Of a stretch of 64,000 nucleotides of DNA, positions 2,558-59,902 are shown piece by piece. Positions within the stretch are counted from its first letter, which is position 1. Each line of letters opens with the position of its first letter. This stretch comes from Membranipora membranacea (taxonomy: Eukaryota; Bryozoa; Gymnolaemata; Cheilostomatida; Membraniporidae). Location of the stretch: assembly GCA_914767715.1 (NCBI GenBank), contig OU612068.1, positions 30,442,001 through 30,506,000 of the forward strand, given 5' to 3'. Under the pieces are notes generated by a model. That model was given only the letters and a program-made list of their open reading frames with translations. It did not search any database and was not told where the DNA came from. A program made the translations under genes and the position numbers.

Positions 2558-5381
2558 TAATTTAATTATTTAATTTAAGTCTTAATATCAAAGCTGTGTT
2601 CACCTATGAAATGGCATTTTTATGAACCTTTTTTATGTAACTTTTTATATACCTTTTTATGTCACAGCTGTTGGATAACAACTAGCTCTCGAGCTCTTAC
2701 ATACAAAGAAACCTATGTTTCTAGATTTCTAGATTGAACAATTATTTGCAGATAACCATCATATCATAACCTGTACCAGCAAAAGCAAGCAACCTCTGAA
2801 ATCGATATCACACAGGATTTATAGTGGTATGATGAAATTAGCAGTATTATCAAAAACATCTAAGTTCTACCCAGGCAGTACCTAGATCAGTCCCTGTATC
2901 TGTTCTACCAAAGTGTCATAGATTTCGGATATTGTAATTGCACCATAAACTCAGTAATCAACTGTCTAGGCTACTTAAAAGCTGTGAGAATGACTTAATC
3001 TTCGAGAAAATTATCTCACTCTTGTCAACTTGGCGCTGAAGTTCGGCCAATTAGTGTAATCGATTTACAAAGCAATGATTGAGAGTGATAATGAAGGCTT
3101 GCGGGTGTCAACAAGGAATCCAATTTTGGCTTATTTTACAACATTTCTCCTAATGAGGAGTTCAAAAATGAACTTATGTTAATTAGGCCTCTGAAAATAA
3201 TGATCAAAATTCACACTGTTTAGAATGTATGGTAATAGTATACTTATAGTATATTGTGCAGATTTTGGATCATTCGTATCGTGACCAAGATCTGCTTCAC
3301 TTGAGGAGAAGATCTATTATCAGTAACAAATTAAGATTGACATGATGTCATGATAGATTCTAGTCCTAATAATCTATATTTTTGATCAACTGACTGCCAT
3401 AATTGGGTTCCCTCTATGTTCACAATAGCCTTGTTATCATCATCTTACTTACATACCACATTATATAAATGCTCACCTAATCACCATAATATACAGTAGG
3501 TAGAGTATTGAAAGAAAAAATCAGAGAGAATAACAAATCTCATCACTAGGGTAACATCACATCCTAGGAGTACCGATAACCGTAGGCGATCGTTGTGGTC
3601 GCCTTCGCATGCACTCCTGATCTGTTGTTGAGCTACTTTTTAGCTAGTATGGTAATTCCATTTACTGCTCCTCATTTTATTAAGTCAATTCAAATTTGGT
3701 TTGTTATGTCTCAGCTGCTGTTTACAGTTTGCCTGAGGATTCAAAATTTATTTCTCTAATAACAAGGCTGATATTTCTGCTGAAGCTCATTTCAAATTTT
3801 TTTAGCTTTAGTTCATATTTTTACCATGTGTGAAAATTATATTTGATTCTATCAAATGAATCATTATCATCTTTCATCTTTTGCATATACTCACGGAATG
3901 TTAAAAAAAGTTGTCATAGAATATGTAAACATTATTTTACATGACCTGACTAAGTTTTTTTATTACTATAACTTCATGTCACTTTTTGGAATGACTGGAT
4001 TTTGGAGACACTGAGACACCTTGTTGCTCAGATTTATTTCATTCATTCATGTCATTCTCCTTAAAATTAATATCCTACTATGGAGACCAAAGAAGAAAAA
4101 ATAAGACGGTTGAAAGTTAAAAATAGAGGATTTCAATTTGTTGAGAGATGTTAGTGACTGTAAGTAAACACAAAGGACGCTTATTTTCTGTTGATGAGAT
4201 TTACTTTTTACATAACCACCAGACAAGGTAGATTACCCCATGAGCTAAAGTCTCGTGAGCCAAAATATCATGAACAGATAATCATGTGAAAATATTTGTG
4301 ATATTGCATGATATTCGCAGATAATAACCCTCCCACACCCTAGATTATATAACAAATGTTATAAAACCAATTCTACTCAGCGTTATACAAGTTAAAATGC
4401 AATTTATGTTCTACTTTTTTTTTGCAAGCTTATGACACCCAGAAAAAAACAAATTTAATATGTAGGGTATGGATGAGTAGCTTATATGTGATAGGGCAGG
4501 TTCCTCTCAATTTAAATATTGCAAAATCTCCAAATAAATTTTTGAATGAAAAGCTGCAATTTGATGTGCTCGTTTTCAAGTTAGTTTCAATGTTATTTTC
4601 GGCCGAAATATAGAAGAGTTGATAAGAAAATCGTGATAAGAACAAGCGGCTCTATCTGCTATGTGTGTGTGTTTTCTCATCATACCTCATGTTTGTTGTT
4701 GTTAGAGCAAAAGTTTAGACTTGTGGAAATTGCGAGAGGGATGAGTTGTTTCAAAGCCACAGGCAGAAATTGATCTTTAGAAATATATGTATTAATGCCA
4801 TTAATGATAGTAATCTTAGCAACATTAATGAATAGTTACACTACTCCATGTGCCAAAAACTAGAAAGTGGAACATAGATCAGATGAAAGGACGGGACTAA
4901 GTAATAAGTAGCCTCATACCAGCAAACCAGGCTCATATAATAGCTATAGGCACTCACAATAACATAGAATTAACATTGCAGGAATCACATCATGTCATCA
5001 AAGCAGAATAATAAGATTACAATCTATAGCGTGGAAACTAAAATTTGTTGTCATATAAGCTCAACTCTTAAAATTCTCTCCAGTGGATTTACTTTTAGCC
5101 AGCTATTGTGTGATAACTGCATGATGCTCCCTGTGTAAACAGTTGGCTGCCAGGCTAACTTTATTCAGGCAAAAAGTAATCTCAACTTTGTTTCTACTGT
5201 AAACTGTTGCCCGTAGGAGTGTCTGGCTCTCTGCCAATAGGGGGAGGGGGTAAAATAAATGGTCAGCTAGTGCTCTCACATGAGAGAGAGACGAGTATCA
5301 CTCGAATACTTACTTTTTGTGGCTGATCAGAATATGATTCCATCGCGATATAAACTTAATGTCAGACTTTCCCTTTTCCAA
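2558..5381. other. Intergenic, no gene seen
   Basis: Nearly three kilobases of AT-rich sequence with stop codons in all frames. The short open frames near 4420-4640 overlap on both strands and show no family resemblance. I see no RNA gene or clear repeat until the tandem array at 5382. Confidence 0.5.
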
Positions 5382-5513
5382 TATCCACCCTTACCTGAGT
5401 TTTAGGACCTGACCTACTGTAACGGTATCCACCCTTACCTGAGTTTTAGGACCTGACCTACTGTAACAGTATCCACCCTTACCTGAGTTTTAGGACCTGA
5501 CCTACTGTAACAG
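5382..5513. repeat. 44-base tandem repeat, three copies
   Basis: Three consecutive copies of a 44-base unit starting tatccacccttacctg and ending ctgtaac(g/a)g begin at 5382, 5426 and 5470. They are almost identical, differing by a single G/A near the unit end. The array lies about 350 bases upstream of the LINE fragment and may be unrelated to it. Confidence 0.95.
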
Positions 5514-5839
5514 TTGTAGGAGTGAAGGATTATCTTTCTTTACAAAGTATCGAGTAACTTCATCATGACAGAATAATCTGGATAACCTAAATTTACTCTA
5601 GCTTACTGAGACTTTAATAATAAAATACTATATGAATTAGCGCCCCAATGACATCCTCTCCTTACACAAACAAGTGAAAGTTTCATCAATGAACTCCCTC
5701 AGGGTTAAGTGGATGAGCTTGCTGTGCCGTTTCTTGAATGTGCACACATCTATACCTATGTCAATGATTTTTTTTGGTTATGTTTTTTGACATTTTGACG
5801 TTCTTCAAAATTATTACGGCAGTCAATAAAATGTATTAA

Positions 5840-6833
5840 TAAAAACGATACTATTCGTAAATGCTGTGTCAAGCTGAAAGAGAAATCTAAATACAGAGCC
5901 ATAACCATGGGTGCCCCTCAAGGTACCAAACTAGGTCCATGGCTATGGTTGGTCTACGTCAACGACATCTCAGCCAGTTGCAGTATTATGAAATACGCCG
6001 ATGATGTGACACTTACGCCCCATTCATGAAAAAGACCTCAAACGCGGAGAACTTCCAAGTCTCTCTTGACGAAGTCAGCCAATGGGCGCAGGACAATAAC
6101 ATGCTGATCAATGCCAAGAAAACACAGCTCATTCAGTTCACCCTCTCAGAACCAAAATATGTTGATCACTAGAATGAATGGTCAGCCTATAACCTCTGTA
6201 GAGTCGGCCAAACTGTTAGGTGTGACAATCGATAGACGTCTGACGTTTGGTGAGCATATCGACAAAGTATGCTCAAACATGGATAGCCGATTGTATGGTA
6301 TGCGCGCTCTAAAGCGCTTGGGTCTCAACCGTAAAGGGCTCATAACATACTATACTGCAAATATCCGTTCTGCTCTAACCTATGCTTGTCCAGTCTGGTC
6401 GTCGCTAATATCTGACAATCTAATGGATAAGGTTGTACAAGTAGAACGAAAAGCTCTGAAGGTCATCTATCCCGATCTCAGCTATGACGCAGCTATCTGT
6501 GAGTGTGGTATGCCACCTATCAAGCTATTCATGCAAGACCAATGCTCTAAGCTGATATTACGAATCCGTAAACAAGACACCCACCCACTAAACAAGCTGA
6601 GCATCAGAAAGGAGAGCAGAAGTACCCGTGTATCTAGTGACATTCATATGCCTGTTTGCAGGACTACAAAACTGCAAAATATCTTCTTTTATAATTTTTC
6701 TAAGGTGTTATAATGCCTTACTGTCTGTTCTTACTGACTTATATGTTTTTATTAGAGCCCTGTCTTTTTTAATCTTGTAATTTCACTCCAGTGTACCACC
6801 CACAAATGGTTTTAGGAGGAAAAAATAATAAAG
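5840..6833 (+). mobile_element. 5'-truncated non-LTR retrotransposon (LINE) reverse transcriptase, broken
   Basis: The reading frame carries the reverse-transcriptase block MGAPQGTKLGP (ATG 5907) and then YADDVTL, the catalytic aspartate box, about 30 residues later. After YADD the frame shifts near 6030 and again near 6150. The downstream frame, 6111-6713, continues the typical C-terminal ORF2 region (LLGVTIDRRLTF, then YACPVWSSL) to a stop at 6713. An A-rich stretch with aataataaag around 6818-6833 may be the 3' tail. Everything upstream of the QG-GP block is missing, so this is a dead, truncated copy. The CR1/Jockey-type clade is only a guess from the LGVTID and TYACPVW blocks. Confidence 0.9.
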
Positions 6834-7452: not shown

Positions 7453-7534
7453 CCCGCCCTCCCCCACCACCTACAATTCACTGTTGCATTATGGGTGCGG
7501 TACTGTATAATTAGAGTGAGTGAGGGGTATATAA
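7453..7534 (+). promoter_or_regulatory. Promoter of EF-hand/hemerythrin gene A (C-rich box and TATA box)
   Basis: A TATATAA box at 7528-7534 lies 78 bases upstream of the ATG at 7612, leaving a 5' leader of about 50 bases if transcription starts ~30 bases after the TATA. A C-rich stretch (cccgccctcccccaccac) at 7453-7470 resembles a Sp1/KLF-type site. The paralogue at 13389 has a TATA box at a similar distance and a similar C/G-rich box. Confidence 0.7.
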
Positions 7535-7611
7535 GAGGGGGCCCCGGGTCTGCAGTCATCACTTCATCACCAGCTCTACTACAGAAATATCAATCTCTCT
7601 CATACATCATC

Positions 7612-9385
7612 ATGGTAAGTCGCCGGGCATTTCAACAAATACTATTCTTGGCTGTTAAATTTCGATATGATAGAAATAATAACTAATTGAGTGTCAGTAA
7701 AAAAATACAACACACAGGCTTAAATTTTTTCTAAAGTATGATGTAATGTATGATTTATTTCCAAAGTTATATGTATGATTTTTTTCCCACAGTCTAAGGC
7801 ACAACACGATGCAGATATGGAGGCCTTGAGAAGCCAAGTTGAGAAGCTTACTGAGCAACAGCTTGTTGAGATCCGCGAGGCCTTCAACCTGTACGACATT
7901 GACCAAGATGGAGTCATCGGAACTACCGAGCTCAAGGACACCCTCACCTCACTCGGACAAGATCCAACCGACGTCGAGATCAAAGAGATGATGGCCAAGG
8001 TCGACCTTGATGGTAAGCATACACAAAATTAGGCATTGGCAGCTGAAAAAATATTTGTTCAAAGTGAAATAAATTAATGAAATATTTTTGAGTCCATCTG
8101 AACTAGAATTTTATAACTACCCATCCTGACATATAAATTTTTAGTCATATCTATTCATTCAGACTAATTGCGTATTTTGTCTCCAAATCTGACTGAAACA
8201 TGAAAATAATTTTTCAACTAAAAACTGAAAAAGTTATATAATAAATAAGCTCATCCATCAGAGGATTATCTATTTGTCTATTGTCTCAATTCAATCAAAT
8301 ATTTCTTTTAGGAAATGGTACCCTCGAGTATGATGAGTTTCTGGTGATGATGGCAGCTAAGATTACTGGTGAGAAGGCTGATGTAGCAAGCTGGGCTCAC
8401 AAGGTCCCAATCCCATACATCTGGGACAAATCTTTCTCTACTCTTGTAAGTACTCATATCTCATTATTGCAGTGTAAAGTAGCAAGTACGTGAAATGTTA
8501 CAATTTTTTAAGCAATAATAAAAAGCGCAACGCTCAAAAATCATTCTACAAGAAGGTTGTTTAAAAAATCATTTCATTTTAAATGTACCACCTATATTCA
8601 AAAGTTGAGTTTCTGAAATGTGTTCCTTACGAGTTATTGACAATGAGCATTCTTAATATTTCCAACTTTCAACAATAATTTTTCACCCTACAGTATCAGA
8701 GAATTGATGATGAGCACAAGCACCTGTTCCATACCATCTGGCAGTGCTTCGATAACAGAGAGTCCTCTTACTGTCTGCTCAACATGGTCGCTACCATGCA
8801 GCAGCACTTTACCTATGAGGAGGGATGTATGAAGGCCTCCAAACATGACGGATATGTTAGACATAAAGAGGTACATGACTGCTATATGGACAAGCTGAAA
8901 CACTTCTCTGTACCCGTCAAAGACAAAGACATCAAATACTGCATGAGCTGGTGAGTAAAGCATTGTATGTTCTGTCACCGTCATTAGAGAGTTGTCTGTT
9001 GACTATAAATGTATAGACAACTCTCAAAACATTTTAAATAGAAAGTAACAAGGCTCTAACCAGGGAGCCTCTCTGCTATAACGATGTTTACAACGTTGAT
9101 AGAATGTGTTAAATTATCCTGTTTCCTTGTCAAATGCATATACAAAAAAACTGGTAAATTGGTTGTAAATTATGATCCAATAAATTAAACTCTTTATGTT
9201 TATTGATATGGATCAGAGTGCAGATTTTCCATATACTTTCTGAAGCAAATTTATTGAAGTTTACATGTAATTAACACAAAAACTATTTCTATATTTTCAG
9301 GCTGGTCAACCATATCAAGAACACTGACTTCAAGTACAAAGGAAAACTTCTCCAGGGAGCCGGAGGAGAGCTTCTCGCTGCCTAA
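7612..9385 (+). CDS. EF-hand/hemerythrin fusion protein, copy A
   Basis: Five exons: 7612-7614 (ATG alone), 7793-8012, 8312-8445, 8694-8950, 9301-9385; 232 residues. Residues ~20-95 are a calmodulin-like N-lobe with two canonical EF-hand loops (residues 36-47 DIDQDGVIGTTE, 72-83 DLDGNGTLEYDE). Residues ~103-221 are a complete hemerythrin: PIPYIWDKSF, DDEH, HFTYEE, WLVNHIK, DFKYKGK. All seven diiron ligands are present (His127, His157, Glu161, His176, His180, His209, Asp214) and their spacing matches myohemerythrin. A 12-residue Gly/Ala/Leu tail follows. Exon 8312-8445 encodes both the end of EF-hand 2 and the start of hemerythrin, so the fusion does not depend on joining exons. No signal peptide, so probably cytosolic. 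An intron directly after ATG also occurs in calmodulin genes. Likely a Ca2+-responsive oxygen- or iron-binding protein (inference). Confidence 0.93.
8986..9026. repeat. Short hairpin of the AGTTGTCT family
   Basis: gagagttgtct (8987-8997 within it) and its complement agacaactctc (9015-9025) flank a short AT-rich loop in the last intron of hemerythrin gene A. Similar hairpins with the AGTTGTCT/AGACAACT ends occur at 35927, 39527 and 53043. Confidence 0.6.
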
Positions 9386-11649: not shown

Positions 11650-13389
11650 TTAAGCAGCGAGAAGTTCTCCACCAGCTCCAACCAGCAGCTTTCCTTTGTA
11701 TTTGAAGTCAGTATTCTTGATATGATTCACCAACCTAAAATAATAATAATAGATTTATCCATTTATTTATACTTCCTTTCTAAAACGAGATTTGTTGTAT
11801 GGGATATTTAATATTTGGGTACACATAGTGGTAGAGAGGGATGCAAACACTGTTGACGTCAACAGCTTTTATTTCAGTAATAGATATATTGGCTATGGGA
11901 TGGCAGCGAAAACTATTGATTGTCAAGAAATCTGCTTTGTTTTGTAAAATTTAGATGTCATTAAAACCTTCTATTTCGTATAAAGCAAAGTACACTCACC
12001 AGCTCATGCAGTATTTAATGTCTTTGTCCTTGACAGGTACAGAAAAATATTTGAGCTTGTCCATGTAGGCATCATGCACCTGTAATAATGTTACCATAAT
12101 ATAATGATGCTAAGCAAGGAAATGGGGAGATAACTCATCATAATAAACTTCTGCAGCAGTTTGCGCTCACCAGGGAAGTTTCTCTAAATCTCACCACACA
12201 CATATTATTTGAATTAGCTGTCAATAAATATTTGGGGATCACAAAGCTAACACAGACTATGTAATGCTTTATTGAGACAATAAGGACTTACTTGTTTGTG
12301 GCGAACATAGTTGTCATGTTTGGAGGCCTTCATACATCCCTCCTCATAGGTAAAGTGCTGCTGCATGGTGGCGACCATGTTTAGCAGAGCGTATGATGAC
12401 TCTCTGTTATCGTAACAAGCCCAGATTGTATGGAAAAGATGTCTGTGCTCATCATCGATTCGCTGGTACTGAAAAATTACAGAACAACAAGTTTAAAAAA
12501 ATTAAGAAGTAACATAATTGAATTTTCTTTCTGCGCTAAAATTTTGATCTGCTCCATCTACATTATGGTTAGAAAAAGAGTTTGGTAAATGTGTCTTTAA
12601 CTTACTAGCAGACCGAATGACTTGTCCCAGATGTATGGGATTGGTACTTTGTGTGCCCAGCTGATGCCTGCCTGGCCACCTTCTACCACCTTAGCAGCCA
12701 TCATCACCAAAAATTCTTCAAAGTCTACAACTCCATTTCCTGTAATAAAAATGTATTTATATGGTTGCTTCAAGTAGCAGGTTTGCTATATGCATGACTA
12801 CAGGCAGAATTTTTAACATGATGGTTCACAATCAACTTTGGTTAAATATTTGTGTTTCTAAAACATAGGATCGCAGGGTCAATAAGCCTCGCTTTTCTCC
12901 TGGAATCATAAACATGCACACATTTACTATTCACTATTTGACTTACCGTCCAAGTCGACTTTGTTGAGCATAGTTTTGACATCGTCATCAGTTGGGTCGA
13001 GTCCGAGCGAGGTGAGCACAGATTTAAGCTGGGATGTTGTAATGACAGCATCTTTTTCTTGTCCTTGTCCATCACAGAAGAGATCAAAGGCCTCTCTGTA
13101 CTCAGCTCTCTGCTCCGGAGTCAGCTTCTCTACTGAAGCCTTCAGCCATTCCATATCTGCCTTTGACTAAAAATAAATATGATGAATATATAAATAATTA
13201 TATTAATAGCAAACAAATAAATATATATGTAATGCCGAGTCATTGCAGTATTGAACCAAATTTTAATGCAGGCAGTGTTGTCTAAATAATTTTTTGTGTA
13301 CTGAAATTCTCATACAGAAATCACACAAAAAGAAGTAAAATAGCAACTAAATTTATACAGCGCAACGAATTAATAAAGCTGTTTACCAT
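11650..13389 (-). CDS. EF-hand/hemerythrin fusion protein, copy B
   Basis: Six exons in transcript order: 13387-13389 (ATG alone), 12947-13166, 12606-12739, 12292-12468, 12000-12079, 11650-11734; 232 residues, the same length as copy A. Intron positions match copy A except for one extra phase-0 intron (12080-12291) inside the hemerythrin domain after HKQ. The hemerythrin part keeps all seven iron ligands at the same positions as copy A and differs at only about 9 of its last 113 residues. The EF-hand part is far more divergent. Loop 1 (residues 32-47) is expanded from 12 to 16 residues (CDGQGQEKDAVITTSQ) and ends in Gln instead of the Ca-ligating Glu, so EF-hand 1 is probably dead. Loop 2 (72-83, DLDGNGVVDFEE) is canonical. 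It lies tail-to-tail with copy A, an inverted duplication. Confidence 0.93.
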
Positions 13390-13490
13390 GATGATTGTTG
13401 AGTGGTGATTCTACCGATGAGATAAAGAGTCTGGTGTCTGTTGCAAGCTGGCTAGCTGAAAACTGATCCTCTCCCTCTCTCACATCCACT

Positions 13491-13605
13491 TTTATACCCT
13501 CAGAACAGCTCACATGTCACCATCAGACCGCCCCCTCCCCCATCACTGTACTCGTCCCTGGGAATTCTGCAGCACCTGGGCCCAGCGCCTGCAGACTGTT
13601 ATTGG
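13491..13605 (-). promoter_or_regulatory. Promoter of EF-hand/hemerythrin gene B (TATA, G-rich box, CCAAT)
   Basis: On the minus strand a TATAAAA box (13491-13497) sits about 105 bases upstream of the ATG at 13389. Further upstream are a G-rich box (plus-strand cgccccctcccccat, 13529-13543) and a CCAAT motif (13601-13605). The arrangement resembles the promoter of copy A, but the C/G-rich box is in the opposite orientation relative to transcription. Confidence 0.6.
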
Positions 13606-22000: not shown

Positions 22001-25000
22001 GATATATCTATAGTCTCTGGTTGACCCATCATGTTAATGATGCCAAAACACAAAATGAACCGTAGACAATGACAGTTCAATCTCCTCACCTACCGATATC
22101 TTGGGAAAAAAAATTTCAGGCCAACTTTACAATACTCTTCGGGTTTCACTCATACCTTTTGATGTATTCCAGAGCAAAATTTTAGTTTGGCTTTATTTCC
22201 AAGGTTGTTGGGGAGGTTAGGTGATAATCATCATAATCTTATCGTCTGCAGTCTCCATATTATATATATTATTATATTATATGTATAAATACATATGTGT
22301 ATTAGTTCACACACAACATATTTTAATGATTTATTCAATTATCATTCTTAAAGTAATCCTTTTTATATTCGTTTCTAGACAAAAGTCCCTGGACTCACTA
22401 TCTACCAGAATAAATATGTCTACAGCTTACCTCAGGTAGGGACGGTTGGATGTTGAGTTCAGGTTTGATAGTACGTACAGAGTCAGAGGAGCAGCGCCTG
22501 TGTCCTGTCACTAACGCTGACTTAACCAGCTCACTTGTACTGTGAGCCTTTCCATTTCTTACTGCAGGCTCAAAATGATCGTCCTTAGTATTCTCCTAAA
22601 TAACATGGCAGATAGAGAAAAATTGAATGATTGAGTTGTTGGATTGAGGGGGTTGGGTAGTGGTTCGACTGAGCAGAGCTTCCCAATTCAACTTGTTTGA
22701 CATAACATTGCTAGAGTACTGAAACTGATAAGGGCCTGTCTTCAGTTGACTGCTTGGTATGTTCAGGTATTCAGAACATAGATGCGGAAATGGAGCTCAA
22801 AACGCTATTGATATATCATAATCTGATATACTTTTTTTTCACATAGACACATGAGAATGAATCTACAAGAGGTCTTAGATTCAGAACCTGTCACTTCTTT
22901 GCTTTAGATCGATTTTACTTTGTTTCGCTCAGTGAGGGAAGATTATTTTGTTTTTTGTCCATATCAACCATCCCATTGATCAGCAAATTTTAGTTTAAAT
23001 TTGTGCATGAATATCTACTGCGTGTGCTACCAAAATATTTGCTGACCAGTAGGATGTAAAATGATGACACTGTTTGAACGGATTTTAAAATTATTTCCCA
23101 GCTCGAGTATGAGAGGAAATATCACCTAAGAGGACCACTGCCACATACCCTCATACAGCCGAGTCACTTCAATACAAGTAAGTGACCTGCATAATGTCGG
23201 TCAAGTTTGAACTGTAGATATTCTAGTAATATCCATCTGATATAACTAAGATCATGATAGAGAGAGACTAACCTGGTAATGCTGTTCATTGATGTCATGT
23301 CTTATATCATCTATAAACTCATCAGTGCTAGCCCGAGATCTGGCTCCCTCATCCTCATAGCGAGACGAGGCGTCCGACGTACTCACTGACCTACTAACCG
23401 ATATATATCAATCAAGTTATACTGTAGACAGTGCAAACAGGTCAAATTCATAACAGTAAAATATAAATTCTGGAAGTTTCAAGATTTGTTATTGTGAAAT
23501 ATGGTTTCAGCAGCATTTGTTTATGGTATGCTGTGGCGATAAAATTATGTAACAAACATGTTTGTGACTTTTGCGCAATATGGTGAAACATGGCAGTTGG
23601 AAATACCAATTCAACGAAATGTCCAGATTTTAATTTTCACCATTCTTCATCAGCAGTCATCATTGTATAACCTAGGATATGGACTATAGATATTATAAAT
23701 GCGTAGGGCTGGTGAATAAGACAGGAAGCATACTTTTGACTGTTTTGACTGGCACTGCTGCCTTGTGACGCTGATCTGATCTCTCTGACAGCGTCCGGAT
23801 CTGAGTAGATGAGTTGATCACTCAGTACTGGCCACTCCTCTGATCGATGATTCATAACAGATCTCCAGCCAAGCTCTGCTAGCCTCTGTACCCCTGCCTG
23901 TGTAGAGGCTATTAAACCAAGGGCATAGAATGCCGTCCCTCGCAGTGTGAGTACAGGGGAACGCTCAGCTATACTAACTAAGGATGGTATAACATCTTGC
24001 TTATCTAGGAGAGGCAGCCCATACACCGATGTACCGATATGGCCCTGTAAAAAACAACACTGTAAACAAATGCAATTCATGACTTAGTATCCCATCGGGT
24101 AATATTGCACATAAGTCAATCTGACAATCTTTTGCGGCAGTTGATCTATTACCTTGCCATTTTGGCCCATTTTAGCTCCCTTATGCTATACAGTTCATTG
24201 ATCTTTCTTACTATTAGACACATGTTAATATATTTATTCACATTACCAGCATAATAAAGGGATATCTATGCCAAATTGGGTTCTTCTGCGTCCCTGGTAT
24301 GCATCAATATCTCGCTCGCGTTTCAGGCTGACATACCAGTAACTACTCCCATCCTTTATGATCATCAGCCAAGTGGGAGCAGTTAGAGGGTTGGTAGGTG
24401 ACTTACCGCAATCCAAATAGCAGCTTTACACTGTGGTATATTGTCAGTGTTATCTGAGTGTATATCGTGATATCTGATGGTGTCAAAGTATTCAGATAGA
24501 TAAGGTAGATTAGATACAATCTCAGCTCCCTCGCTGTGCTGTATCAGCTGACCGTATAAGTGAGGAGGTACATATACACTCTTACCTGGTCGCCTGTCAA
24601 TATCAACAACCATTACCATAAACATACTCAATAAACATACTCAATTTATTGGTCCTTACGCTTGTTAGCTATTTGTGTGATGGATCATTTCGAGTAAAAT
24701 ACTCGCGGGAGGAAATGTCCGAACTTTCGTACATTATTTATAAGCTTGAACTGTGGTAAGCTCAACCCATAGACTTGGCTCAACCTCATGACATTATATA
24801 AATACCAAGCTTGGCTAGTGAACAACATCATGTCACCCCAAAACTAGCTGAAATAAGCGCAAATCTTCTAGGATTATCAAAGAGCTATGTGTGATAGTTA
24901 AATTTTCATAATCTTTCCTTGCAATGTTAGTAATATAGATAGGTTTGTTGAATTTATACCAGTTGTCTTCTCTTCGAACATAAACCTCAAGGAGAGGGTA

Positions 25001-31000: not shown

Positions 31001-34000
31001 CGGATTTTATGATACAAATGCTTAACATGCACCTGTAACTATTTAATACTTACATCCAGACCATTAGCAAGTGAACTGTCCTGTCTAGACTGAGGATTGT
31101 TAAGCAGGTGAAATAATGTCTGTATAAGTGCTTCGTTAATTCTCGGACTATCATGGCATTTGATTATGTGCTGAAGTAAAATTTGCACTCCTCCACATCT
31201 AGACAAGAGACTGGCATTGACGTATGCTGTGAAAATAAACAAGCAAATTAAATAGTATCCCGTTATGAATATTTGATATCTATTAAGTTTATATCCTACA
31301 GGAATGGAATGAAAGTTGAAACATATAGCATGGCAAAGTAGGTTCAAAGTCTAAAAACAGTAAAGCAGAGCCAACAATTAACACCAAAGTAAGTCTGACA
31401 ATGTATACTAACCAAGCTCACAGAGGAACTCCAGAGCAGATAGCACCATACGTTCTGAGTTAGATGCGCCGTCTCCTGCCACGGCTATAAAGGGTAATAC
31501 TATAGAAGGCTGGAGAGACAAAGGGTGAAGCTCTAACAGATGACGACATAGTCTGATAGCCTGATTCCGTTCTATATCATGTGAAAAGTGGAGATCCAGT
31601 GACCTACAGACGGTTAAAAAACAATCAAGAATATATTATTTATTATATATGTTTATGATTACATGAGTTGTTACATCATTTTGGTTGTCATCACTAAATT
31701 TCATATGAAGGTATCCTTTTGAAAAAAGACCAAATAAGTGTTCTAGGCTCAACATCAATACACACAGCAGAAAAAGGTTGTAGATAATTCAACAAAAAGT
31801 TCTTAATATCAATAGAGTTTGTAAAGATTTTAAGTCAGTCGGTTATCATACATCACAATTGTTCCATTGAGGCTGAAAACTAACACTTTGTGCTTCTGAC
31901 CACTGAGAAATCTACCTATGATATAGTATGACAGTCATTGACCCAACTCACCTGGCGATGCACCAGTCTAGTTTATACTGATAGAAAAGCTCAACCTTCT
32001 CCGGCGTAGTAATTATATATCTCAGACATCTAAATGTAGCTGCTCTTATTACTGAGTGCTTATGGAGAACACAGCTCCGCAAGCTAAAAATAAAACAATA
32101 CGGCCACTACTTTAGTCTCGATGACAATTGCTCATAGAGTTCCCAAACCATGAAAAAAAAGGTCTACTTTAAGAACAATAAAGAACAACAATAGAAGGAT
32201 GATCCATGAATAAATACACCTATATCGCAATTCTTTAAACTAAGTTATATGAATAGTATAGTAAAATCCACAATCAGGATAAGGATAGACAGTTATGATA
32301 GACAAGATGAACAAGTGCTATTTATGGACAATCTCGGGATGATATTCAGACAGATAGGCACACTCTGATGCGAAAAACTAAAGACCGCCAATCACTTTTT
32401 GGCACAATCTAGAGATTTCAACACGTGCCCTCACAGATTTGAATAGAATTTTGGCATCACAACAGGAAAGTTCGCCGAATATCTTAGAGTGAGACAGGAG
32501 TTGGCCAATGTCACACTGACTCTAATAGAGCAAGTTATAGAGTATGGCCTCATCATGTGAAAGCTGTCACAGGAGCACTTCCAGATTATGATTTTTTATG
32601 GCAAATAGAACAATAAATATACATAATAACTTGAGAGCTGACATGACCAGATGACATCACATTATATGCAGTGAACAGGAAGGAGGAGATAGAGGAGGGT
32701 AGCCTGACGTACCAGTAAATGAGCTGAGCATCTGTGAAGCCGAGCTCCTCATTATGTGACAGCTCCTTATAATATCGCACCAGGGCATTGAGATAAGCCA
32801 ACTTCCTCGCCTTCGTCACCCCCTCATCTCTTATCAAATGTACTAAAATCTCTCTTAATATATCGTGGGCATCTACAATAAACCATAGGATTTTATGTCT
32901 ACACCAGTATTCTTTTAACATTCTCTCATAATGCGGCCCATCCTTAAAAATCTATTTTGGTATCTGTCATATATGCACTATTTTACTGGTTAGTGAAATA
33001 ACTCGATGTAGTGGAAACCAAAACATTGTGGTTTATTTCCAGGACTGATCAGTCTATTTTTATTCTGGTCACATTGTTTGGTCTCATATTTTGAATTACC
33101 AAAGTTAGTTTGCATGGAGTTGTTATCATCATGAGACCTGCGACTGTTATTGCTCATGCCAGTAGATTATGTTATTTATTATAAGAGCTTAGAGTTCATA
33201 GCTATGTTATCATTTATCAAGCAGCCTAGTCACACAAGGTAAAGCTGATAAGAGTCACAGCGCTGGGTCTAAAGGTAAAACCGCACACAATTATTGGTAC
33301 CATGAGAATATCTATAGTATTATTATTATATATCAATAGGAAATCTTGGTGAGGCTTTAAGTTCCTCATCCATATGGTTAAGTTCTACATTCTATAATTA
33401 ACAGGTAGTGAGCTTGTCTTTTCAGGACTGATGATACTAGCCTAGCACCAAGGCTTTGCACCACACAGTTAAAGGCCAACCTAATTTGATGCAATCTTTA
33501 AGATTAATTATCCATAAATCTCTAGGAATGACACACCAGTAAAAAAGCTCAAAAACAATACAGTCATAAAATATGAAAGTGTGGTGGTAAAGGCCTCTGT
33601 TTGGTCTACATAAATCATTATCTTATTACCAAACAGCCTTCTACTTGAGGAAAAAAACAACAAAATTTACCCATATGCACCAATCCACACAATGGGATAA
33701 ACTTCACTTAACACAATTGTATGCTAAAACAGAGGAATTAGATCCATTACATAAATATGAATCTACTGAATTATCATCTATCCACAGCAGCTCAAAACAG
33801 CCCATTTTTAGTACTTACTTTTAACGTTAGCAAAGACCACATACTCCTCATCAATACTCTGCCTTCCTGTAAATAAACAAAAGCTTGTTACCTCAGACTG
33901 TGAGCTGTGACACTCAACTCATTACAAGTTTGTCGCTAGAAACACCCTAGCAAACCTAAACAGGTATAATTTTGAAGAAGTGCGACAATTTGTAAGCCTA

Positions 34001-55800: not shown

Positions 55801-56967
55801 GCATTGATGAAAATTTTAATATGGTAAGACAAATGATGAGATATAACCAAACAAATTTTGAATCCAGATTTTTAATACAAAATTTTCTGAGTAATTTTCC
55901 CACTAAACTAGATCTGAGTTTGATAAAGAAAAAAATGTGAGAGTTTAAACCGTCTAAAATATCTCGTGAAACTTGCAAGTTTTCAATACTCTTAAAATAT
56001 TTTCTTGCTCACTTACCAGTATATGGTCGAGAAAAATATAGCCTTCTACCATGCCAGAAAAAGTCATGAAGGGTATTATGAAAGCAAACTTCCAATCCAT
56101 AAACATTGGTATGAAACTCTTAGTTGTAAGGTCATCATTGGTTGGTGAGTTGATTGACTCGCTGGTACACGCTATAATGACAGCGGAGGTCAACCCAAGA
56201 AATAGGTATATGATGAGGTGCGACATGGTGTTCTCATTGATATTATGAGCATTGTCAATTTCAGGTGCGGTTTTGTTGCTGGTAAAGTTCCCAGGTACTA
56301 GATGGAGACAGCTTGGACTTCCCTCACAATAGCCCATAGTAGTATGGTTAAAATGATGAGGGAGATTAGACAGGTCTGCCACATTGTCACTTGGAAGAGC
56401 AAGGTTGAAGGCACCGCTGAATACCATACTCAACTGGTATAATCCATAAAATATAGCAAATAACTTCTGGTGAATGATCTTCGATTTTGTAGAAGTTAGC
56501 CCACTCAACTTTTGACCGATAGATGTGACCTTTGCGGTGATAATTACCATCAGCAAGCTTTTACCCATACCAAATAAAAGGGATGTGACAATATTGAGCC
56601 ACAAAGTTTGAGTATCTAAGACTGTCACCAACCTAACGACACCCACGAGGCATCCGACCAATAAACAGGCCGTCAATGTCACTTTCGATATTATGAGAAC
56701 GGCAGCAAAGCAGATGATCACAGTGCCGGCCACTTCAGCAGTTATATTTATAATTGTCATAAACTGCTGTCGATCATAGTCTTTATAATACAGATCTTGA
56801 AATGAGAAGATTTGATAGTGATGTAGAGCTGTATACAGGATCATGACAGCGACAGCGAGTATAACCGGCAGCTTATAAATAGAGTGCTGATAGATACATC
56901 CTCCACAGGCAGCCTGAGCCTCACAAGTAGAGCTGTTCTCCTCAGTGCTGTCACTCTCAGCCGCCAT
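52857..56967 (-). CDS. UNC93-like multipass membrane protein
   Basis: Exons 56017-56967, 55193-55460 and 53904-54061 join in phase into 459 residues with about 11-12 hydrophobic segments. A final exon at 52857-52984 gives an acidic tail ending TETEVLVTSSSETEQLS. The phases only fit if a small exon at 53372-53450 (with SVRDNQDRINTLTPSG) lies between, giving ~527 residues; that part is tentative. UNC93 resemblance: an early TM segment followed by FSFQDL, FIIPFMTFSGMVEGYI in the middle (family: IPLTIYSGLEQ), VMVLICYGIVGS, and near the end LQMFHSIGYLLSG with LYILLASVIL. A luminal loop holds three N-glycosylation sequons (NHT, NFT, NKT). UNC93 proteins are MFS-fold regulators or chaperones of channels and receptors. 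A more distant MFS relationship is possible. Confidence 0.8.
53043..53079. repeat. Short hairpin of the AGTTGTCT family
   Basis: gaagttgtct (53044-53053) and agacaact (53071-53078) are inverted, in the last intron of the UNC93-like gene. Its first bases after the repeat (acaca) resemble those of the 39527 element (acacgg). Confidence 0.55.
54343..54467. mobile_element. 107-base foldback insertion with 9-base target duplication
   Basis: Two perfectly complementary 51-base arms (54352-54402 and 54408-54458, left arm beginning tagttaaagagctctaac) flank a five-base loop. GGTGTTCTT lies immediately on each side (54343-54351 and 54459-54467), a perfect 9-base duplication. There is no coding capacity. 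A 9-base duplication is typical of Mutator-like (MULE) elements, so this is probably a non-autonomous foldback moved by such a transposase (inference). It sits in an intron of the UNC93-like gene. Confidence 0.92.
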
Positions 56968-58058
56968 CTTGATGTCCGGAACTTAAAACAAGCCACAACT
57001 TGCAAACTGTCAATAACTAGCTATATTAATAATAATAATTTAGATATACGACAGATGACGCTGTGTTGCTCCTCACCAGCTTTCCTTGTGATTCAGATCT
57101 GATTGTCCACATGTATCTGACGGTCCACATCTGATGTAAGGGTTATTATAGAACATACGATATTGATTTTCAGAGAACTCATGTTCATGACATCAGTTTG
57201 ATCAGGAGAAGGATAAGAGGGGGGATAATAACACCTGTCAGATTAATGAGCCACACACCATGTTTTATCCTTCCGTATTCACCGGATAGGGTTAGTACGG
57301 GAATTATTTGCTCAGCTGGTCAATCTCTTCTGTCAGAAATCTGGGCGAATATATTACTTATGAGTGATAAGCCTAGGTTTAATTATCTACGCTGTTTATC
57401 TTGTAGTATCACATATGTGAAATGCTGCTAATTAATGATGTTACATGTATACAGAATCTCAGAACTGATCGATACCACACGCAGTGATTGGGTCCTGGTA
57501 AAGCTGACAGGTCATATTGTTGTAATGGTATAACAGATATATATTAATTATTCTTGTATTGATTCCTATATAATAACAGATATTAAACCAAAGTCATGTA
57601 TATCCATATACAGGTAGTCAGCAGAAGGTGAGGATAGGCCAATCACCCACCAAGAAAAGCCACGCCAAGGAGATTGATATCTGATGTTTCAATTGATAAG
57701 AAGCGTTGCATGTCTTATATCTAATAAGAAATGCTAAGAAATATCACTGATATGATTCTTTCTTTGTCAAAATAAAATTTCTTTATTGATGAGTGAGAAA
57801 ATATTCACAGGAAAGAACCTAACACTGTATCCATGCATTCCTAACTCATTCTTGGATGTCATATTAAATGTTTATAATTGATATGATCCTTTAGTGATGA
57901 CAGCGTGAGACTCAATACAACTCTGGGGCAGCAATGGCTGACAGCTGACCAGTCCACAAACCATTACACGGTCAGCGCAAGCAACATGTACAAAACAGAG
58001 GTAAGATAACTTCTCATAGAATCTTATAGAATTATGGTGACTTTTGTATTGTTCATCG
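56968..58058. other. Intergenic between CK1-family kinase and UNC93-like gene
   Basis: Both neighbours are on the minus strand, so this holds the UNC93-like promoter and leader, and the kinase 3' untranslated region with AATAAA (minus strand) at 57782-57787. No gene was recognised. Confidence 0.6.
57782..57787 (-). terminator. Polyadenylation signal of the CK1-family gene
   Basis: TTTATT on plus (AATAAA on minus), about 270 bases beyond the stop codon at 58059. Confidence 0.55.
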
Positions 58059-59902
58059 CTATACAGTGTCAGGGGCCTCAATAATATCCTTGAATTTTTC
58101 AGGTATTTTCACCAGCCAGTCCATTCTGCACGGGCGATAAGGTTCCTCCATATTCAGTACACTCAGCCGGTATTCAAACAAGCTTCTCAGAAAATTGTAG
58201 TTGGGATCTTCGTCAAACTTGAGCGCTCGGGCATATGCAACATACTGAGCAAACTCAGTGGGTATTCCCTGGAAACGAAACACACAATTCTCTATGGGAT
58301 GAGTATGACTGCTTTTAGAGCAGTATATGATAATCCACTATGCATAAAATGGTAATTGATAACGCAACTAATGGGAACAATCTCTTTCTGTAATACATCA
58401 ACCTCGTAGGCAACATTTTTGCCTGTGTTATGTAATTTCTGTCATGAAACAATGTGGAGGCTTTTTTCGCAGTTAGCGAAACGTGTTTGATCAAAGACTA
58501 CAGAACTATGCCATGCCGCCCATGGCATTGCTGGGTTAGAGAAGAAATATTAGACGCTATCTACCATTTTGCCACACATGTGATATGAGAGGACATCAAA
58601 CTGCTTATTTTTTTATTATAACAAAATTTTATGAAAAGTATGGCAGGTATGATAATAATGATGTGTTTATGTGCTCTGATTGTTTACCTGACATAACTCC
58701 TCGGTGGGCGTGTTTTTCTTACAGTCACATATCCTCTGATACTTCTGTCGTCTGTCTTCTCCCTTTAGTCCCTGCCAGGGTAACTGTCCCTTCACCATAT
58801 ACACCAGCATATATCCTAATGACTCCATATCATCACGCCGACTCTGCTCATTGCCGCTGAGAGCGTTCACACTGGCATATCTGTCAAAAGTATAGAGATA
58901 TAATGTGTGTTTAACAAAGAAGCGATGATCCTTGCTATGATATTCAAGCTAGTCGAGTGTGACCACGAAATTAAAAGGAGTTGGGGGCCGTGTGGAGTTT
59001 GGGGGACTCAAACTAATAGCACCAGGGAGTTTTTCCCCAAATTCCCTGATAACACTGATACTGATTAGTGAGTTGTCTTACCTCGCTGTACCAGCTAGAG
59101 ATCTGTTAGTCTGAAAGGGAATGTGAACATTCAGTGTGCTATCTCTGTACTTCTTACACAATCCCATGTCGCACAGATAAATAGTGGAGGCCTTTTTATA
59201 ACGGCCAACCAAAAAGTTCTCAGGCTTTATATCACGATGTATAAAGTCATATTTGTGAAGGGATTCCAGTCGAGTAATCATCTGACTTGCCATGATACAC
59301 ACGCATTTCATAGAGAATTTGTACTCGTTAGCTGAGTACAACTCTTCAATGTTTGGACCTAGTAATTCCATGGCAAGAAAATTGTAAGTCTTTTCTTTGC
59401 CAAAATGTCTGGCATGAGGGAATCCTTCTTCATTCCGCAGCATCTCATAGAGTTTGGCCTCAAAGTGGAGCTGTCTGAATCGCTGTTTCTCATCATCAGT
59501 CTTTTCTATTTTGATACAGAGGGTTCCTTGTGCGGCAGGTTTTCTGACATGAATACCAAGATAGGCAACGCAAAATGATCCCTTTCCTAACTGTTTCATC
59601 AACTTGTATCTGAAAAAACAAGATTACTATTGTCACCCTACAAACAAATGTATGTAAGAAAACTGTGCTAGTTTATAATAAATATATTTTACAAAGCAAT
59701 CGGCAGATTTATTCACACACTACACTTTTTGGTTCTAAATAAATGGAGTCCCACATTAATAATACTCTTTAGTCAGGAGATGACTGCTATCATCAATAAA
59801 TGATCTGTTGACTCAACTCCTATACAAGATAACGATTGTGGCTATCTACCTGTTGGCGATCAGAGGGCGATCGGGGTTCTCCAACTCAAATGGTGTCGCC
59901 AT
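58059..59902 (-). CDS. Casein kinase 1 family protein kinase (divergent, DMG instead of DFG)
   Basis: Exons 59850-59902, 59082-59609, 58688-58880 and 58059-58268 join in phase into 327 residues, almost only a kinase domain. The Gly loop is [12 protein letters not shown] (~25-36), the ATP lysine is in LCIKIEK (Lys51), the catalytic loop HRDIKPENF has Asp144, and the metal-binding motif reads DMG (165-167) where CK1 kinases have DFG. The CK1 signatures [33 protein letters not shown] and LPWQGLK are all present, so it belongs to the CK1 family and keeps the residues needed for catalysis. It lacks the long C-terminal regulatory tail of CK1 delta/epsilon or TTBK, and the last ~20 residues ([11 protein letters not shown]) are unlike canonical CK1. 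The start ATG ([11 protein letters not shown]) directly precedes the domain. Substrate unknown. Confidence 0.93.

Follow-up and report, generated by a model that had tools for sequence, protein, structure and literature searches.

A fusion of a calmodulin-type EF-hand lobe to a myohemerythrin-type hemerythrin in three genes of the bryozoan Membranipora membranacea

We analysed a window of 64,000 nucleotides from the genome of the cheilostome bryozoan Membranipora membranacea (contig OU612068.1; positions below are those of the window, the whole stretch of DNA under study) and found in it a gene, here called gene A (7612-9385, + strand), whose predicted product joins a calmodulin-type EF-hand lobe to a complete hemerythrin. 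With a second such gene (B) in the same window and a third (C) on another chromosome, the sequence shows that this species has three genes in which a calmodulin-type N-lobe is fused to a myohemerythrin-type gene.

Results

The models of genes A, B and C were drawn by hand. Gene A has five coding exons, its four introns are all of the GT-AG type, and its coding sequence of 699 nucleotides specifies a protein of 232 amino acids in which a calmodulin-type N-lobe with two EF-hands is followed by a linker and then by a hemerythrin with seven iron ligands. Exon 1 (7612..7614, +) is the ATG alone. Exon 2 (7793..8012, +) encodes an N-terminal helix, EF1 and the start of the EF2 loop; the EF1 calcium loop (residues 36-47; 7895..7930, +) is canonical by an in-house loop pattern. 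The EF2 loop (residues 72-83) is split over exons 2 and 3 (8003-8012 and 8312-8337, +). Exon 3 (8312..8445, +) starts within the glycine codon of that loop and is chimeric, encoding the remainder of EF2, the linker and the N-terminal arm of the hemerythrin; the gene model agrees here with the initial annotation, which had read this exon as both the end of an EF-hand and the start of a hemerythrin. Exon 4 (8694..8950, +) supplies H127, H157, E161, H176 and H180, and exon 5 (9301..9385, +) supplies H209, D214, the C-terminal tail and the stop codon.

Both halves of the product were recognized by profile and by sequence comparison. Pfam assigned EF-hand_7 at 61 bits (cut-off 30) and Hemerythrin (PF01814) at 31.5 bits (cut-off 25.3). 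Residues 18-93 matched a plain calmodulin-1 chain (E 1.1e-37) and a calmodulin-calcineurin chimera (E 1.3e-41), and the hemerythrin part matched myohemerythrin (E 6.6e-34). All seven myohemerythrin ligands align with the seven residues named above, as had been claimed from the sequence at the outset; the claim that their spacing is that of myohemerythrin held for every interval except the first, between two histidines, which is 30 rather than 29. The product also has the insertion of five residues before helix D, being ungapped there against 1a7d and separated by a five-residue gap from 2hmq; this insertion distinguishes myo-type from circulating-type hemerythrin, according to the accessible portion of PMC5363010. 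Because of the E values to calmodulin and myohemerythrin, and because a like architecture recurs in genes B and C and in seven public proteins, the fusion is, on the sequence, real and not a product of chance.

Transcript evidence comes from P0001, an intron-free jgi contig of 1193 nucleotides that is 100% identical to gene A across 223 residues, from codon 10 onwards. Its codons occupy 1569 nucleotides of the genome (7817-9385); the contig is shorter than this span and therefore represents one spliced mRNA. Since it begins at codon 10 it says nothing on the first exon junction of gene A, which is read through by P0003 and P0004, both of which differ from gene A in sequence. The identity of P0001 to gene A bears out the proposal that lobe and hemerythrin belong to one protein and counters the alternative that their exons lie in separate transcripts. 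Hand-drawn models leave room for two adjacent genes to be misread as one, yet such a misreading is extremely improbable: it would have to accommodate this contig, six other fused proteins and a chimeric exon that is equally long in A, B and C and whose loss would shift the reading frame.

Gene B (13389-11650, − strand) is inverted and lies tail to tail with gene A. It encodes 232 residues, reaches 32.1 bits for PF01814 (cut-off 25.3) and is identical to A at 177 of 227 aligned residues (EF part 56/95, hemerythrin part 121/132). Its exons, all on the − strand, are the ATG alone (13387..13389), a degenerate EF1 with a four-residue insertion and the start of EF2 (12947..13166), the chimeric exon with EF2, linker and hemerythrin arm (12606..12739), two hemerythrin exons (12292..12468 and 12000..12079) and a final exon with the end of helix D, the tail and the stop codon (11650..11734). 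The intron that cuts off the fifth exon from the fourth is absent from gene A. It lies at 12080-12291 (−), between the two histidines of the HK.VH motif, and is common to gene C (locus L021). Two public sequences, P0010 and P0066, seem to share it, and it was probably lost from gene A.

Gene C, on contig C3, encodes 230 residues. Its chimeric exon measures 134 nucleotides, as in A and B, and a candidate ATG-only exon lies at C3:805784 behind a TATA-like box. Such boxes stand 5' of all three genes; read from the sequence, those of A and B are TATATAAG (7528..7535, +), about 80 nucleotides 5' of the ATG, and TATAAAAG (13489..13496, −).

We searched the genome (18 contigs, 339,339,785 bases) in six frames with protein A and obtained 52 matches at E ≤10, 14 of them in loci A (4), B (5) and C (5). 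Matches that fell mainly in the hemerythrin part and had E <0.1 were confined to these three loci. Four weaker matches reached the hemerythrin part: three, at residues 54-148 on C3, C4 and C6 (E 6.5-9.5), each contained one stop, and one on C11 (E 0.47, two stops) showed no hemerythrin on inspection. With a single-domain hemerythrin of Lingula (P0095) as the query, all six matches at E ≤10 lay in loci A, B and C. These exon-by-exon searches with proteins A and P0095 thus found no single-domain hemerythrin beside the fused genes. A PF01814 profile search of the genome gave no matches, loci A, B and C included, and short exons are the likely cause.

Public relatives were sought with two protein searches, as the initial annotation had recommended for this architecture. 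The first gave 10 matches, seven of them fused, P0001 (gene A itself) being one; the second, with an alignment as query, gave 275 matches, of which the best 120 were listed and held the same seven. Of the seven, jgi supplied five and merc and lgn one each, with none from UniRef, nr, NCBI or EukProt among the matches listed, and they probably represent several species. PF01814 was present in six of the seven. The exception, P0003, misses part of the hemerythrin, and P0005 starts inside the lobe. The seven diiron ligands are present in eight of nine aligned rows, P0003 being without two, and are complete by eye in gene C; a WLV triplet is kept across the rows, as WLT in P0004 and P0006. Three fragments (P0008, P0010 and P0066) end, by eye, at introns known from A, B or C. 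Proteins of Bugula neritina are presumably present in nr, yet no bryozoan name occurred among the matches listed, where names are truncated and clusters are pooled; the fusion may therefore not extend to all bryozoans. On viral contigs, 54 stretches fitted a pattern and none encodes a relative. The same searches qualify a further initial statement, that animal hemerythrins are single-domain proteins. For animal-type hemerythrins at large this was too strong: by an in-house count over the 123 listed proteins of both searches, at least two helix-D motifs (two to four) occur in 40, among them the tandem poly-hemerythrins P0011, P0012 and P0022, the last of which seems by eye to begin with a signal peptide.

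The introns bear on how the two halves met. In a calmodulin gene of the same genome (L022, contig C8), exon 2 opens at the second codon and a candidate first exon, ATG followed by gtaagt, lies about 540 nucleotides upstream; in abalone calmodulin genes, too, exon 1 is the start codon alone, as given in the accessible text of PMC6171432. A phase-1 intron then interrupts the glycine codon of the EF2 loop in both genes (GAC G/GA AAT in calmodulin, GAT G/GA AAT in the fusion, the slash marking the intron). The first two introns of the fusion are thus those of the calmodulin gene in position and phase, with calmodulin exon 1 a candidate. Near-identical calmodulins are encoded at two loci, L022 on C8 and L026 on C6. 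In the hemerythrin half, a phase-0 intron directly precedes helix A and a phase-2 intron lies in helix D. Bailly et al. describe, in the part of PMC2556348 available, comparable introns from annelids and sipunculans, the second of them in some leech genes; the resemblance is one of description, and we do not claim exact identity. Nor do we equate the intron that B and C have in addition, between the histidines of HK.VH, with the second annelid intron, placed by the same text at the end of helix B. Because calmodulin-type introns lie 5' and hemerythrin-type introns 3' of exon 3, these gene structures place the join inside that exon.

In a hemerythrin tree of 70 rows, made by a quick method from few columns, the eight fused rows formed one clade on a long branch (SH-aLRT 99), and in a tree of EF lobes the nine fused rows formed one clade (92/96, not starred). 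Together the two clades fit a single joining event, which is probable on these trees. Within the fused group, B and C fell with P0004 (95/97) and A with P0003 (92/89); these groupings suggest that the A and B types predate the split of the species concerned.

That the lobe descends from troponin C, or from any EF-hand gene besides calmodulin, is very unlikely. By fold alone the lobe is not separable from troponin C, but in local comparisons within the genome the lobe of gene A scored 214 with calmodulin and 183, 180 and 176 with calmodulin-like, centrin-like and troponin-C-like loci, labels that we assigned in this analysis. Moreover, both 5' introns match those of calmodulin, and two troponin-C-like loci are without the EF2-loop intron.

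By the in-house pattern, the EF2 calcium loop is canonical in all nine aligned rows and the EF1 loop in five (P0001 repeating gene A); A has two canonical loops, and B and C have one each. Among nineteen lobe positions that we take to line the calmodulin cleft, Phe68, Met71 and Met72 are unchanged in 9/9 lobes. The ratios of nonsynonymous to synonymous substitution (dN/dS) for lobe and hemerythrin were 0.198 and 0.060 between A and B (NG86), and 0.095 and 0.034 (NG86) or 0.165 and 0.070 (YN00) between B and C. A structure model of the fusion has two folded domains joined by a low-confidence linker of about 20 residues (predicted local distance difference test, pLDDT, <50 in part; predicted template modelling score, pTM, 0.56). 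All nine aligned rows share the junction stretch WAHKVPIPY without a change. No signal peptide was visible in the fusion protein by eye, no predictor having been run.

Elsewhere in the window, three tandem copies with a spacing of 44 nucleotides, 94-96% alike, lie at 5379-5514. A fragment that resembles reverse transcriptase by eye lies upstream of gene A (5799-6713, +), with no Pfam match in 6108-6710. Exons of rictor (RICTOR_V and RICTOR_N) occupy 23640-24083 and 31042-31350 (−). An open frame of 342 codons resembling a membrane transporter (55957-56982, −) gave a weak MFS match below the cut-off and two protein-search matches, and a protein kinase exon (Pkinase; 59081-59623, −) looks casein-kinase-1-like by eye. 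Scanning the window for Rfam families and for tRNAs gave no match in either case.

Discussion

The reading of function that we prefer, and that we regard as evenly poised between right and wrong, is that of a myohemerythrin in the cytosol, which a calcium-operated lobe docks to a partner. As no signal peptide was seen, the protein would be cytosolic, like myohemerythrin, and its hemerythrin half would bind oxygen as myohemerythrin does. Calcium bound in EF2 would open the lobe's hydrophobic cleft, and the open cleft would grip a partner; calcium would thereby keep an intracellular oxygen or diiron store where calcium rises, for example in contractile or ciliated cells, and the A and B types would respond to different calcium levels. 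We infer the docking hook because the cleft is largely kept, EF2 is invariant and the linker is flexible. This last feature speaks more for docking than for a signal passed straight to the iron site; the predicted arrangement, in which a linker of low confidence separates two folded domains, likewise favours tethering over calcium tuning of oxygen or iron binding.

Several observations weigh against docking. EF1 is noncanonical in four of nine rows (B, P0002, P0004 and P0005), and likewise by eye in gene C. In seven of nine lobes cleft position 35 holds Thr or Ser, and folding alone may account for the retained hydrophobic residues. Divergence is faster in the lobe than in the hemerythrin part (56/95 against 121/132 identical between A and B). 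The dN/dS ratios are rough because dS is high (about 0.6-1.2 for B-C). The pTM of 0.56 would also be compatible with an interface that forms only when metals are bound. Partner, calcium and oxygen binding and tissue are all hypothetical here, including the muscle or secretory cells suggested by the initial annotation.

Three other explanations appear to us unlikely, each to a similar degree. Calcium in the lobe could act allosterically on the diiron site of its own molecule and alter that site's oxygen affinity, autoxidation or release of iron, an idea that goes back to the initial annotation. Every hemerythrin locus found in the genome is fused and the WAHKVPIPY junction is more invariant than a mere tether would need, both of which speak for such coupling; the low confidence of linker and overall model speaks against it, as does gene B, in which EF1 has degenerated while the iron ligands are unchanged. 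The fusion might instead combine a calcium buffer and a muscle oxygen store, joined for equal amounts, with neither docking nor coupling. The separate folding of the domains in the structure model would suit two such stores, as would the TATA-like boxes of all three genes, TATA boxes being suited to strong tissue-specific expression. A buffer, however, has no need of the largely kept cleft, and B and C retain one canonical site. It is also doubtful, though the present data do not tell it from oxygen storage, that the task of the hemerythrin half is iron storage, detoxification or immunity, with calcium-dependent placement. Such roles have been proposed for some annelid hemerythrins, ovo- and neurohemerythrin among them (PMC5363010, in the text available); the kept WLV (or WLT) triplet and ligands argue against them, and myohemerythrins are the nearest solved structures.

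Beyond docking as such, we entertain, as less likely still than any of these three, a calcium-gated oxygen carrier: every hemerythrin found would have been captured by a lobe, the calcium signal would set the place or tightness of oxygen holding, and the two conserved types would work at different calcium levels. We know of no oxygen-binding protein under direct calcium control, and a carrier of this kind would, if real, be the first as far as known.

The architecture unites calmodulin and hemerythrin, two of the best-understood small proteins, and the joint between them is retained in genes A, B and C of this genome as well as in the public proteins. It offers a clear case of domain fusion in which the joining exon is still visible, it bears on oxygen handling in bryozoans, and it makes a direct link between calcium and oxygen testable with a single expressed protein.

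An EF-hand/hemerythrin architecture was not found described in the literature searched, in keeping with the initial annotation; two surveys of animal hemerythrins lay outside the search. Neither EF-hand nor calmodulin occurs as a word in the main text of PMC2556348, of PMC5363010 or of PMC4919030, and the word hemerythrin is absent from the Flustra genome paper (PMC13326412). Bryozoans are already counted among hemerythrin animals in the accessible text of PMC11025005 and PMC6400237. Within that literature the fusion looks new, and hemerythrin in bryozoans is already known.

Single-domain hemerythrins and myohemerythrins have about 120 residues, whereas the fusion has 232 and includes an EF-hand lobe. 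Set beside the myohemerythrin of Themiste (PDB 2mhr and 1a7e; PF01814), it carries about 100 extra N-terminal residues as that lobe and a C terminus longer by about 11 residues, and its hemerythrin domain falls in a separate clade on a long branch. Calmodulin has two lobes with four EF-hands in about 149 residues; the fusion has the N-lobe alone, without the C-lobe, and differs from the calmodulin N-lobe in an additional N-terminal helix and in the degenerate EF1 of B and C. Like the tandem poly-hemerythrins (P0011 and others) it is a multi-domain hemerythrin of animal type, but those are repeats of hemerythrin, with no EF-hand family among the matches listed. It resembles bacterial chimeric hemerythrins such as DcrH in that the hemerythrin domain is a module in a longer chain (PMC2556348, in the part available); the partners there, by the accessible text of PMC2556348 and PMC4919030, are chemotaxis and GGDEF domains, whereas here the partner is a lobe of calmodulin type.
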